DNA of 64,000 nt, taken from an uncultured Pseudokineococcus sp. Its GTDB lineage: Bacteria; Actinomycetota; Actinomycetes; Actinomycetales; Quadrisphaeraceae. Position numbers and translations under genes: made by a program. Below are positions 59,022-64,000 of the stretch, one piece after another. The number at the start of each line of letters is the position of its first letter. The first letter of the stretch is position 1. The notes beneath the pieces were generated by a model. It was not told where the DNA came from and made no database searches. It saw only the letters and a program-made list of their open reading frames with translations. The stretch lies in the NCBI RefSeq assembly GCF_947495735.1, contig NZ_CANMAA010000004.1, positions 248,001 to 312,000 of the forward strand, in the 5' to 3' direction.

Positions 59022-60164
59022 TCAGCGCGTCGTCGTCTCGTGGACGAGGTCGACCACGCGGGCCAGCACGTCGGGGTCGGTCGCAGGCAGCACGCCGTGG
59101 CCGAGGTTGAAGATGTGCCCCGGGGCCGCGCGGCCCGCCTCGAGCACGGCGAGCACGCGCTCGCGCACGGCGGGCCAGGGGGCGAACAGCGCCGCGGGGT
59201 CGAGGTTGCCCTGCAGGGCGACGGGCCGGTCGACGGCGCGGCCCACCCGCTCGGCGGCCACGTCGAGCGGCACCCGGAAGTCGACGCCGACGACCTCGGG
59301 ACCCGCCTCGGCCATGGCGCCCAGCAGCTCGCCGGTGCCGGTGCCGAAGTGGATGCGCGGCACGCCCAGGTCTGCGACGCCCTCGAGGACGGCGGTCGAG
59401 TGGGGCAGGACGTAGCGCCGGTAGTCCGCGAGCGGCAGCGCGCCGACCCAGGAGTCGAACAGCTGCACCGCGCCGGCGCCGGCCTCGACCTGCACGCGCA
59501 GGAAGGTCGTCGTCAGCGCGGTGAGTCGCTCCATCAGCGCGCTCCAGAGCCCCGGGTCGCCGTACATCATCGCCTTGGTGTGCTCGAGGTTGCGGCTCGG
59601 CCCGCCCTCGACGAGGTAGCTCGCGAGGGTGAACGGAGCGCCCGCGAAGCCCAGCAGCGGGACGCCGCCGAGCTCGCGCACGAGCATCCGCGCCGCCTCG
59701 TCGACGAAGCCCACCTGCGCCGGGTCCAGGACGGGCAGCGCCTCGACGTCGGCGGCCGTGCGGACCGGCGAGGCGATGACCGGGCCGGTGCCCGGCACGA
59801 TGTCGAGGTCGACGCCGGCGGCGGCCAGCGGCACGACGATGTCGCTGTAGAGGACGGCGGCGTCGACGCCGTAGCGGCGGACGGGCTGCAGCGTGATCTC
59901 GGTGACCAGCTCGGGGGTCCGGCAGGCCTCGAGCATCGCCGTGCCGGCGCGCGCCTCCCGGTACTCCGGCAGCGACCGGCCCGCCTGGCGCATGAACCAC
60001 ACCGGGGTGCGCTCGCCGCGCCGGCCGTGCGCCGCGGCGCTGAAGGCGCCCTCCCCGGGCAGCGCCGGCGCCCCGGCGGCCGTCGTGGCCCCGGCCGTCG
60101 TGACACCGGCCGCGGTGGAGGGGGCGGGCGAGGTCGTCCGGGTGGCGTCGGGCACGTCCCGCAT
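59022..60164 (-). CDS. hemE: Uroporphyrinogen decarboxylase
   Basis: 380 aa. After a 45-residue Thr/Ala-rich leader come the family signatures [19 protein letters not shown], the catalytic-Asp block [30 protein letters not shown] and [13 protein letters not shown]. It turns uroporphyrinogen III into coproporphyrinogen III. First gene of the hemE-hemY-hemQ group; divergent from the DUF3000 gene with 66 nt between the starts. The start ATG 60164 has no clear ribosome-binding site. Confidence 0.96.
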
Positions 60165-60230: not shown

Positions 60231-60869
60231 GTGGACGGGCGACGGGGCAGGGGCGGCGCGCACGGGTCCCCCGGCGAGGGGCCCTCGGGCGCCAGCGGAG
60301 GCGGACCGGGCTCGGTGGTCGAGCGCTGCACCGCCAGCCTGCGCGCCGCGCGCACCCGCCCGGAGGTGCGCCTCGCCGAGGTGCCCGCCCCGGCCCGGGT
60401 GGCGCCGTTCGCCGTGGCCCTGTCGGCCGACGTCGTGCGGGCCGGTGACGACGACGACCTCGCCACCGGCCGCTTCGTGCTGCTGCACGACCCCGCCGGG
60501 CAGGAGGCCTGGGAGGGCGACCTGCGCGTGGTCACCTTCGCCCGTGCCGAGCTCGACCCCGAGACCGGCGGCGACCCGCTCCTCGGCGACGTCGGCTGGT
60601 CCTGGTTCGTCGACGCGCTGGCCGACGGCGGGGTGGAGCACACCGCCGCGGGCGGCACCGTGACCCGGGTCCTGTCCGACAGCTACGGCAGCCTCGCCGA
60701 GCGCGAGCCCACCGTCGAGCTCGAGGTCCGCGCGTCCTGGTCGCCGGTCGGCGGCCCGGACGTCGTGGGCGACCACCTGCGCGCCTGGGCCGACCACCTG
60801 CTGTGCACGGTGGCCGGCCTGCCGCCGCTGCCCGCCGGCGTCACCGCGCTCCCCCGCCGCGCCCGCTGA
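60231..60869 (+). CDS. DUF3000 family protein
   Basis: 212 aa. A Gly-rich leader is followed by the conserved DUF3000 layout: [80 protein letters not shown] and [20 protein letters not shown]. The function is unknown; the family is confined to actinobacteria and is typically found next to hemE, as here. Confidence 0.88.
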
Positions 60870-61135: not shown

Positions 61136-61164
61136 CTCAAGCCGCCGGACGGGTGTGCCGATGG
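61136..61164 (+). promoter_or_regulatory. FliA/WhiG-type promoter
   Basis: CTCAAG at 61136-61141, 15 nt, then GCCGATGG at 61157-61164. This fits the sigma-28 family pattern (-10 GCCGATAA, 15-16 nt spacing). Transcription would start near 61172, about 40 nt before the regulator gene. The gene-free stretch 60870-61210 shows nothing else. Confidence 0.55.
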
Positions 61165-61210
61165 GACTCCTGGTAGCGCCCACGGAAGGGCGCTTCGAAG
61201 GGAGTCGACC

Positions 61211-61912
61211 GTGTCCGCCGTCCTGCCGCCCCCCGCCCGAGGGACCGCCCGCACCGCTGGGGGTCCCGCGGTCGCCCGCATCCCCAGCCAGCACGCCCGG
61301 ACCCAGGCGCAGTCCGCCGCCGACCGCGGCACCGCGCTCGTGGCGCTGTCCTCGTCCTCGCTGCGCCGCGCCGCCGTCCGCGTCCTGCGCGGTCTCGGGG
61401 CCCGCGAGGTGCTCGCCGCGCCCGACGCGGCCGCCGCCCGCACCCTCGCCACCCGCCGCTCGGGCACCGTGGCCGTCGTCCAGCCGTCCTTCGGCGGCGG
61501 CACCGGCCTCGGCCTCGTCCGGGAGACCGCCCTGGGCGGCTGGGGCACGACCGTCGTCGTCGACCACCGCCGCGAGGGCGCGGACGCCGCCGCCGCCGCG
61601 GGCGCCGCGCTCGCCGCCGGCGCGCGCTGCTACCTGGTCGTCGACCCGGCCGAGGAGGAGGGCGGCCCCGTCCGGCCCGCCCGCCGCCTCGACGCCGTGC
61701 CGCCGACGGGCGCGTGGGAGGACCTGTCCGAGCGCGAGGTCCAGGTCATCTCCCTCGTGGCCGAGGGGCGCTCGAACCGCGACGTCGGCGAGGCCCTCGG
61801 CCTGTCGGCGCTGACCGTCAAGAGCCACCTCGCCCGCATCGCCCGCAAGCTGCGCACCGGCGACCGCGCCGAGATGGTCGCCATCACCCTGCGGGCGGGC
61901 CTCGTCAGCTGA
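61211..61912 (+). CDS. LuxR/NarL-family orphan response regulator, WhiI-like
   Basis: 233 aa. The C-terminal helix-turn-helix is canonical: LSEREVQVISLVAEGRSNRD, VGEALGLSALTVKSHLARIA, RKLRTGDRAEMVAI. The N-terminal receiver-like domain lacks the phosphorylation pocket: the strand that should end in Asp reads VAVVQPSFGGG, and the acidic pair after the first strand is missing. An orphan, atypical receiver regulator between DUF3000/hemE and rnd matches the location of whiI in Streptomyces, as I recall it. GTG 61211 has AAGGGAG 6 nt upstream, and a WhiG-type promoter precedes it. No sensor kinase is nearby. Confidence 0.8.
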   Translation: MSAVLPPPARGTARTAGGPAVARIPSQHARTQAQSAADRGTALVALSSSSLRRAAVRVLRGLGAREVLAAPDAAAARTLATRRSGTVAVVQPSFGGGTGLGLVRETALGGWGTTVVVDHRREGADAAAAAGAALAAGARCYLVVDPAEEEGGPVRPARRLDAVPPTGAWEDLSEREVQVISLVAEGRSNRDVGEALGLSALTVKSHLARIARKLRTGDRAEMVAITLRAGLVS

Positions 61913-62028: not shown

Positions 62029-63501
62029 ATGACCGCGCGCCAGCCCAGCCCCGCCGCGGCGGACGCGTCGCCCGCCGGCGCGCCCGTCAGCAGCACCCCC
62101 GACCCCGCGCCCGCCGACGCGGCGGACGCGTCGACGGCGCAGCAGCCGGTGGGGTCACAGGGCGCCCAGCCCGGCGCCTCGGGCTCCGGCGCAGCAGACC
62201 CCGAGGCCACCGGCACCGAGGCGTCCGGCACCGAGGCACCTGGGGCCGAGGCGTCGGACGCCGACGCGCCGGCGCCGCTGCCGGTGCTCACCGAGCCCGC
62301 CGAGGGCGTGCCCGACGTGGTCGCGGACCCCGAGGCCCTGGCGGAGGCCGCCGCGCGGCTCGCCGCGGGCACCGGCCCGGTCGCCGTCGACGCCGAGCGG
62401 GCCTCCGGGTACCGGTACGGCCAGCGCGCCTTCCTCGTCCAGCTGCGCCGCGCCGGCACGGGGACGCTGCTCGTGGACCCCGACGCGCTGCCCGACCTGT
62501 CCTCCCTCACCGCCGCCATGGGCGACGCCGAGTGGGTGCTCCACGCGGCGGGCCAGGACCTGCCCTGCCTCGCCGCCGTGGGTCTGCGGCCCGGTGGCGC
62601 CCTGGTCGACACCGAGCTCGGCGCCCGCCTGGCCGGCTTCCCGAAGGTCGGGCTGGCGGCCGTCCTGCAGCGCCTGCTCGGGGTGGACCTGGCCAAGGAG
62701 CACTCGGCGGTCGACTGGTCCACGCGCCCCCTGCCCGAGCCGTGGCTGCGCTACGCGGCCCTGGACGTCGAGCTCCTCCTGCCGCTGCGCGACGCGCTGC
62801 TCGAGGTGCTGGAGGAGCAGGGCAAGCTGGCGTGGGCGGCCGAGGAGTTCGCGGCCGTCCGCGACGCCCCGCCCGCCCCGCCCCGCACCGACCCCTGGCG
62901 ACGCACCTCGGGGCTGCACGCGATCCGCTCGCGCCGCCAGCTGGCCGTCGTCCGGGAGCTCTGGGAGGAGCGGGAGCGGCTGGCCCAGCTCCGCGACGTC
63001 TCCCCCGGGCGGGTCCTGCCCGACCGCGCCGTCGTGGCCGCCGCGACGGCGATGCCGACCTCACCGGCCGCGCTGGCGGCGCTGCCCGTGTTCTCCGGCC
63101 CGGCCAACCGCCGCCGGGCGGCCACGTGGCTCGAGGCGATCCGCCGCGGGCAGGGGATGGCCGACCGCGACCTGCCCCCGACCTCGACGCCGGCCACGGG
63201 CCCCCCGCCGCCGCGCACGTGGAAGGACCGCGATCCCGCGGCTGCCGCACGGCTCGCCGCCGCGCGCGAGGTCGTCACGACCCGCTCCGAGGAGCTCGAC
63301 GTCCCCGTCGAGAACCTCCTCCAGCCGGACCTGCTGCGCCGCACGTGCTGGGAGCCGCCGCAGCCGCTGGACGAGGAGGGGCTGGTCAGCGCCCTGGCGG
63401 CAGGCGGCGCCCGCGCGTGGCAGGTCGCCCTGCTCGCGGGACCGCTCGCGCAGGCGATGGCCGACGCCCCGCCGGTGGAGGCCTCTGCTCGCCGGCCGTA
63501 A
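62029..63501 (+). CDS. rnd: Ribonuclease D-like 3'-5' exonuclease with HRDC domain
   Basis: 490 aa. An Ala/Thr/Glu-rich tail of short repeats (EATGTEASGTEAPGAEAS) fills the first ~85 residues. The DEDD exonuclease follows: Exo I VAVDAERASG, Exo II LHAAGQDLPCLA, Exo III YAALDVELLLPL. An HRDC domain (TDPWRRTSGLHAIRSRRQLA and on) and a second helical domain complete the protein. It trims tRNA and other stable RNA 3' ends. ATG 62029 after TACGGT; 117 nt behind the regulator stop. Confidence 0.93.
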   Translation: MTARQPSPAAADASPAGAPVSSTPDPAPADAADASTAQQPVGSQGAQPGASGSGAADPEATGTEASGTEAPGAEASDADAPAPLPVLTEPAEGVPDVVADPEALAEAAARLAAGTGPVAVDAERASGYRYGQRAFLVQLRRAGTGTLLVDPDALPDLSSLTAAMGDAEWVLHAAGQDLPCLAAVGLRPGGALVDTELGARLAGFPKVGLAAVLQRLLGVDLAKEHSAVDWSTRPLPEPWLRYAALDVELLLPLRDALLEVLEEQGKLAWAAEEFAAVRDAPPAPPRTDPWRRTSGLHAIRSRRQLAVVRELWEERERLAQLRDVSPGRVLPDRAVVAAATAMPTSPAALAALPVFSGPANRRRAATWLEAIRRGQGMADRDLPPTSTPATGPPPPRTWKDRDPAAAARLAAAREVVTTRSEELDVPVENLLQPDLLRRTCWEPPQPLDEEGLVSALAAGGARAWQVALLAGPLAQAMADAPPVEASARRP

Positions 63502-63548: not shown

Positions 63549-64000
63549 TCAGCGACGCCCGTGCAGGGCCCACGCGTGGATGTCGGCGTTCACCCGGCGC
63601 ACCTGCGCGGGGATCGTGAAGGCGTCGACCACGAACAGCACGAAGAGGGTGCCGAAGAAGAGGAACCCGACGAGGAACCACACGGTCAGCCAGCCCATGA
63701 GCGTCAGGCCCAGGTACAGGACCCCCTGCAGGGGCTGGCGGAGGTAGAACTTGTGGGCCCCGAACTGCGCCAGGAACAACCACAGCAGGTAGGCGACCGT
63801 CGTGTCCTTGTAGCCGAGCGGTGGTGCGGGCGGTCCCGCGTAGCCGCCCTGGCCGGGGTAGCCGCGCTGGCCCGCGTAGCCCTGCTGACCCGGGTACCCC
63901 TGCTGACCCGCGTAGCCCTGCTGACCCGCGTAGCCCTGCTGACCCGCGTAGCCCTGCTGACCCGCGTAGCCCTGCTGACCCGGGTAGCCCTGCTGGCCGC
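63549..64000 (-). CDS. TM2-domain membrane protein with GQQGYA repeats (cut by window edge)
   Basis: At least 150 aa; the start lies beyond the window. The C-terminal part is a TM2 domain: [20 protein letters not shown], a tight turn, [20 protein letters not shown], then a third hydrophobic stretch and a polar tail. The visible N-terminal part consists of six-residue [12 protein letters not shown] repeats, a flexible extension of the kind found on many actinobacterial membrane proteins. Function unknown. Convergent with rnd. Confidence 0.85.
63838..64000. repeat. 18-bp tandem repeat in the TM2 gene
   Basis: About nine copies of an 18-bp unit (CCCTGCTGACCCGCGTAG and variants) run to the window edge, encoding GQQGYA on the minus strand. 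Confidence 0.92.

Follow-up and report, generated by a model that had tools for sequence, protein, structure and literature searches.

The window analyzed here, a stretch of 64,000 nucleotides (C4:248001-312000) of the 4.2 Mb genome of an uncultured Pseudokineococcus, contains a gene for an atypical response regulator that is flanked by hemE and a DUF3000 gene on one side and by an RNase D-like gene on the other side (Table 1). Upstream of the regulator gene, at 61136-61164 on the plus strand, lies the only match in the 64-kb window to CTCAAG-N15-GCCGATGG, and 46 nt separate the end of the -10 element from the GTG start codon; an earlier note on this DNA had described a CTCAAG-N15 sigma factor box about 45 nt before the gene, in agreement with these positions. 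None of 100 dinucleotide shuffles of the window contained a match. The box fits the WhiG-class consensus that was derived in this analysis from whiI regions (-35 [C/G]T[C/A][A/C]AG, 15-base spacer, -10 GCCGAT), and its spacer differs from the 14-base spacer of the flagellin type. A reading frame with many repeats is located at the end of the window (63549-63998, minus strand).

Table 1. Features of the whiI locus in the Pseudokineococcus window
Feature	Position	Strand	Evidence
hemE (uroporphyrinogen decarboxylase), flanking marker	59022..60164	-	Pfam URO-D 3.2e-120; upstream on opposite strand in 73/80 loci (best 80 of 568)
DUF3000 gene upstream of whiI, start approximate	60315..60869	+	Pfam DUF3000 6.4e-65; relative upstream of whiI in 79/80 loci (best 80 of 568)
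-35 element CTCAAG, WhiG-class	61136..61141	+	exact match; also precedes whiI in G003 and G002, of the same genus
15-base spacer	61142..61156	+	length 15 at nearly all whiI regions with a clear box; 14 at most flagellin genes scanned
-10 element GCCGATGG	61157..61164	+	exact match; GCCGA[T/A] conserved across families
Likely ribosome-binding site AAGGGAG	61198..61204	+	by reading the sequence
whiI ortholog, atypical response regulator, 233 aa: degenerate receiver and LuxR/GerE HTH	61211..61912	+	domain, synteny, profile, pocket residues, tree
RNase D-like gene (3'-5' exonuclease, HRDC), downstream of whiI	62029..63501	+	Pfam DNA_pol_A_exo1 2.4e-32, HRDC 2.9e-13; downstream in 79/80 loci (best 80 of 568)

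The C-terminal part of the regulator is a GerE/LuxR HTH domain (Pfam, 5.1e-15), and no receiver domain was matched in the N-terminal half in Pfam at E 0.001. The receiver pocket reads L-S-Q-V instead of D-D-D-K, with glutamine at the phospho-Asp position. Degenerate pockets are present in 65 of the 82 rows of the WhiI alignment, and the full D-D-D-K pocket (with D or E allowed at the first two positions) is kept in 17 of these 82 proteins, which suggests that the ancestor of WhiI may have been an ordinary response regulator.

Gene neighborhoods were compared in the best 80 of 568 confirmed whiI matches (the named loci), with the neighbor families named by Pfam. All three flanking genes are in place around whiI in 73 of these best 80 of 568 loci, including those of Streptomyces; among the seven named loci that lack hemE, the upstream sequence is limited to about 1 kb or less in four and is longer in L104, L118 and L119. 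Profile scores from 344 genomes of the class set the WhiI group (at least 175 bits, plus one contig-edge fragment of 122) apart from the next proteins (at most 103), and the window gene groups in the tree with Streptomyces WhiI, with a WhiI/BldM split of 100/100 (no third response regulator was included, and the midpoint root is for drawing only). Judging from the locus, the tree and the gap in scores, the window gene is an ortholog of WhiI; the earlier note had described it as a WhiI-like regulator. Horizontal transfer was judged unlikely as the main explanation because the locus is conserved across the named loci.

The host genome encodes FlhA, five flagellin-family matches and a flagellar cluster, from which flagella are predicted; the name Pseudokineococcus does not occur in the literature searched for the genus. 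Four host proteins match TIGR02479 (cut-off 189.6 bits). The best two are C1:446852 (282 bits), which passes the cut-off, and C3:324211 (157 bits), which adjoins four flagellin genes (C3:320068-323721). The former is flanked by an integrase-family gene on one side and by an M23 peptidase gene and rpsB on the other, the arrangement of whiG in Streptomyces. A tree built from 45 sigma sequences places the C1 copy with Streptomyces WhiG (70-71% identity); the flagellin-locus copies, among which long branches are flagged, form a separate clade (both 100/100). By these sequence comparisons, the host has WhiG (C1:446852, beside rpsB) and a separate flagellar FliA (C3:324211). The earlier note had considered that the genome might have no sigma factor of this type; both are present, together with the flagellar cluster.

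Conservation of the box was assessed on two scales. Among 39 related genomes, a box with a score of at least 11/14 precedes whiI in all 19 orthologs with upstream sequence (19/19), so that the lack of conservation in relatives for which the earlier note had allowed was not observed. A wider set of 84 upstream regions included 69 from the class sample (67 genomes, two with a second copy), to which Streptomycetaceae (f35) contributed only 6 of their 36 WhiI genomes, and 15 from relatives. With a PWM trained without the tested family (leave-one-family-out), the seeds of which were picked by the FliA/WhiG consensus, 73 of the 84 regions score above all 60 shuffles, and 31 of 32 families are represented among these. 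The 11 misses are found in G095, G309, G103, G115, G076, G257, G137, G104 and G279 and in the extra copies of G325 and G270. The miss in G137 (L198) is due to a misplaced scan region, and the correct region scores 16.3 with a PWM that includes its own family. In G076 and G115, both with WhiG, the whiI box is present only in a degenerate N14 form, and no box was found before whiI in G257, also with WhiG. A 14-base spacer was observed before whiI in three relatives (G006, G008 and G012). The second whiI copies in G325 and G270 (L279 and L282) have no WhiG box and a long branch in the tree.

At the named loci, CTCAAG or GTCAAG with a 15-base spacer precedes whiI in Kineococcus, Kineosporia and Nanopelagicales, and most Streptomyces loci carry CTAAAG-N15-GCCGAAGA near the same place. 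Among these best 80 of 568 loci, scores of at least 12 were obtained before whiI in 24 of 25 cases outside Streptomycetaceae (the missing one is cut by the scan window and scores 19.1 in a wider window) and in all 55 cases inside this family. Outside Streptomycetaceae, no control region of the same best 80 of 568 loci reaches a score of 8, be it upstream of DUF3000 (0/21) or hemE (0/18), where starts are approximate, or after the whiI stop, before RNase D (0/25). Inside the family, the control upstream of DUF3000 scores at least 8 in 8 of 55 of these loci and at least 10 in none, and the hemE control and the one after the whiI stop are negative (0/55 each). Since many of these whiI regions had served to train the control PWM, this comparison tests the controls, not whiI. 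For so short a motif, a chance match or some other function could be proposed, but the shuffles of the window without a match, the conservation before whiI, the absence from neighbor genes outside Streptomycetaceae and the absence from the WhiG-less genomes G104 and G279 render this reading extremely improbable.

WhiI was found in 97 of the 344 class genomes, from 27 families; in a sample of 119 genomes from the phylum, only 4 had WhiI at 1e-30, none of them from outside the class. With WhiG accepted at 240 bits or more, 91 genomes have both proteins, 6 only WhiI, 2 only WhiG and 245 neither (55, 6, 2 and 245, respectively, without f35); these are counts of genomes, not of independent events, from presence lists compiled by hand. 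Among the genomes with WhiI and no WhiG at 240 bits, G060 and G080 have cut-off sigma fragments, G202 matches at 212 bits, and no FliA-family hit at 1e-38 was obtained for G079, G104 or G279. A clear whiI box is present in G079 (score 17.4) and also in G060, G080 and G202. Because WhiG is present in the family-mates of G079, whose assembly is 93% complete, the missing hit is probably due to an assembly gap. The complete genomes G104 and G279, from one genus, retain whiI and bldM, lack WhiG and have no box before either gene, and represent a natural test of the link between WhiG and the box. WhiG was found without WhiI in G046 and G147 and, at 200 bits, also in G041, G094, G162, G179, G189 and G263. 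The view expressed in the earlier note that the WhiG-WhiI link is older than Streptomyces is favored by the occurrence of WhiI in so many families, with WhiG in nearly all, and by a conserved box that is missing in the genus with whiI and without WhiG; the incomplete G079 has the box and no WhiG hit. The whiI genes of G104 and G279 (L270 and L276; family f17, genus g26) form a long branch (1.51) and resemble an 'unplugged' copy of the module.

The other possibility raised in the earlier note, that a motility sigma factor has taken over, implies that whiI is read by the flagellar FliA (C3:324211) and that WhiI is a part of the swimming regulon. The host has a flagellar cluster, with similar boxes before fliM, fliD, flagellin, flgK, cheB and MCP genes, and fliM and one flagellin gene carry the 15-base form, CTCAAG-N15-GCCGAT. 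However, WhiI does not follow FlhA across the class (both in 13 genomes, WhiI alone in 84, FlhA alone in 29, neither in 218; p = 0.72): FlhA is missing in 84 of the 97 WhiI genomes and WhiI in 29 of the 42 FlhA genomes, and G027 combines WhiG, whiI and the box without an FlhA match. The spacers point in the same direction. Of the 52 genomes searched, 30 were scanned at their flagellin loci, with spacers taken from best-match scans; the best site has a 14-base spacer in all 14 flagellated WhiG genomes scanned, in 9 of 14 genomes without WhiG (the other five have 13, 15 or 16, mostly with low scores) and in both unassigned genomes, and some of these flagellin boxes are weak (10/14 matched positions). 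Before whiI, a 15-base spacer is present in 12 of these 14 flagellated WhiG genomes and in those WhiG genomes that have a clear box and no FlhA, except for G367 (16). Genomes with one of the two sigma factors thus assign the 15-base spacer to WhiG and the 14-base spacer to FliA, and the whiI box, mostly with 15 bases, looks WhiG-class. Given this separation, along with the presence of a distinct flagellar FliA, takeover by the latter appears highly unlikely.

A less exclusive alternative is that both sigma factors read the whiI promoter in this genus, with WhiI fed by the pilus/c-di-GMP program as well as by the swimming program. The two promoter types share the same -10 and a near-identical -35 element, and the host genome has mixed sites, with N15 at fliM and one flagellin gene and N14 at pilM, which suggests that the two sigmas may overlap; the N14 forms before whiI in the three relatives and, in degenerate form, in G076 and G115 are also compatible with such dual recognition. 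Nevertheless, spacer and -35 differ in genomes with one sigma factor, where whiI has N15 (WhiG, no FlhA) and flagellin has N14 in 9 of 14 cases (no WhiG), and we consider recognition by both sigmas possible but unlikely.

Similar boxes are found at many other sites of the host genome. The looser pattern CTCA-N16..18-GCCGAT has 41 matches compared to 3 for the reversed control; some of the 41, inside reading frames, are probably due to chance. Boxes precede type IV pilus genes, namely those for PilM and two T2SSE ATPases (one with MshEN), as well as genes for GGDEF/EAL proteins, a PilZ protein, FliM, FliD, FlgK, flagellin, CheB and MCPs.

The pilM and bldM genes were scanned with the whiI-trained PWM, from the training of which they were absent. 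PilM was detected in 35 of 47 chosen genomes; no match was found in the other 12, which are G104, G279, G053 (the only Streptomycetaceae genome tested for pilM) and the WhiG genomes outside Streptomycetaceae G027, G044, G045, G077, G103, G108, G257, G359 and G367. Upstream of pilM, 27 of the 30 loci scanned score above all 50 shuffles, and the spacer is 15 in 28 of the 30. In two genomes of family f31, a second WhiG-like sigma factor (234-237 bits) is encoded about 5 kb from pilM (G049:C1:1985208-1991764 and G081:C77:12877-18184), suggestive of a pilus-dedicated copy.

The BldM-like gene of the host (146 bits, 47% identity) is preceded by CTCAGG-N15-GCCGATCA. Outside f35, 51 of 76 bldM regions, from 18 of 30 families, outscore at least 99 of 100 shuffles, and 57 of 76 outscore at least 95; the corresponding numbers in f35 are 1 of 15 and 2 of 15. 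The 25 of 76 regions without a significant box, several of them in WhiG genomes, include four weak hits that may not be BldM (L407, L408, L410 and L402, from G005, G008, G009 and G026, respectively) and one with only 133 nt of upstream sequence (L352 from G055). The phosphorylation pocket is intact in 73 of 80 BldM rows. In the host BldM (L220), the pocket is D-D-S-R, without the phospho-Asp, as in WhiI, and the phospho-Asp is also missing from BldM of genus-mates (L404-L406).

The best explanation of the data as a whole, and in our estimate a very probable one, is that the box is a WhiG promoter, not mainly one of flagellar FliA, which would drive the WhiI ortholog within a shared WhiG circuit together with the type IV pilus, c-di-GMP enzymes and BldM. 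From the presence, position, spacing and conservation of the boxes, the orthology and the co-occurrence, we infer that WhiG uses these boxes, that BldM and WhiI dimerize in the host and that c-di-GMP provides an input. In the proposed mechanism, WhiG would become active (in Streptomyces and Rubrobacter, it is held by the anti-sigma factor RsiG when c-di-GMP is bound); RNA polymerase with WhiG would then switch on the type IV pilus, the c-di-GMP enzymes, BldM and WhiI together, and BldM-WhiI heterodimers would act on second-wave genes. Streptomyces would have kept the step from WhiG to whiI; the single genome searched for pilM gave no match, and a box of this kind is mostly missing before bldM.

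According to previous reports, WhiG of Streptomyces venezuelae directs whiH, whiI and one further gene (PMC11005364), sigma-BldN drives one of the two bldM promoters of this species, and Streptomyces BldM and WhiI act as a heterodimer (PMC4125116). The link between WhiG and whiI described in these studies resembles that of the host in the sigma factor clade (70-71% identity), the orthologous regulator and the shared locus, as well as in the 15-base spacer and the near-identical -10 core of the promoter (GCCGAA in Streptomyces, GCCGAT in the host). Unlike Streptomyces, the host has a flagellar cluster and a WhiG-class box before bldM, whereas Streptomyces bldM has been published under sigma-BldN. 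The RsiG-(c-di-GMP)-WhiG system of Rubrobacter, for which predicted WhiG-class promoters, with mapped starts, have been described upstream of genes for type IV pili and c-di-GMP enzymes (PMC8325347), is similar to the host in the boxes before pilus and GGDEF/EAL genes; as a difference, the 119 phylum genomes gave no WhiI at 1e-30 from outside the class, and the word whiI does not occur in the text of that report. Actinoplanes missouriensis also has several FliA-family sigma factors in one actinobacterium, there tied to development according to a report (PMC13293333) the text of which does not mention whiI or bldM. The literature searched, which was accessible in part and comprised few subscription papers, contained no description of WhiG boxes upstream of whiI or bldM in organisms other than Streptomyces.

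According to one previous study, simple motile actinobacteria that contain WhiG have no WhiI, and the step from BldN to BldM is suggested to have been early (PMC4255298); if the present reading holds, both views would need revision. The data suggest an old origin of WhiI and BldM, which mostly occur together with WhiG and have WhiG-class promoters, so that the type IV pilus, bldM and whiI are the predicted targets of WhiG in the class outside Streptomyces. The WhiG-WhiI switch appears to predate Streptomyces sporulation by far, and its origin may lie in a surface-pilus program. We consider it reasonably likely that the ancestor of the class had a single WhiG regulon that united bldM and whiI with the type IV pilus (pilM) operon, and in which the same sigma factor made both halves of the heterodimer. 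The sporulation cascade of Streptomyces would then be this surface/dispersal program after loss of the pilus and transfer of bldM to sigma-BldN, with the co-expressed pair turned into a two-signal integrator, and the older circuit would still operate in flagellated relatives such as Pseudokineococcus. How Streptomyces sporulation originated thereby becomes testable in small, flagellated relatives. Finally, CTCAAG-N15-GCCGAT is found in the host before genes for a penicillin-binding protein and an alpha/beta hydrolase (L025 and L030; C5:55962 and C8:123412), which are possible further targets of WhiG.
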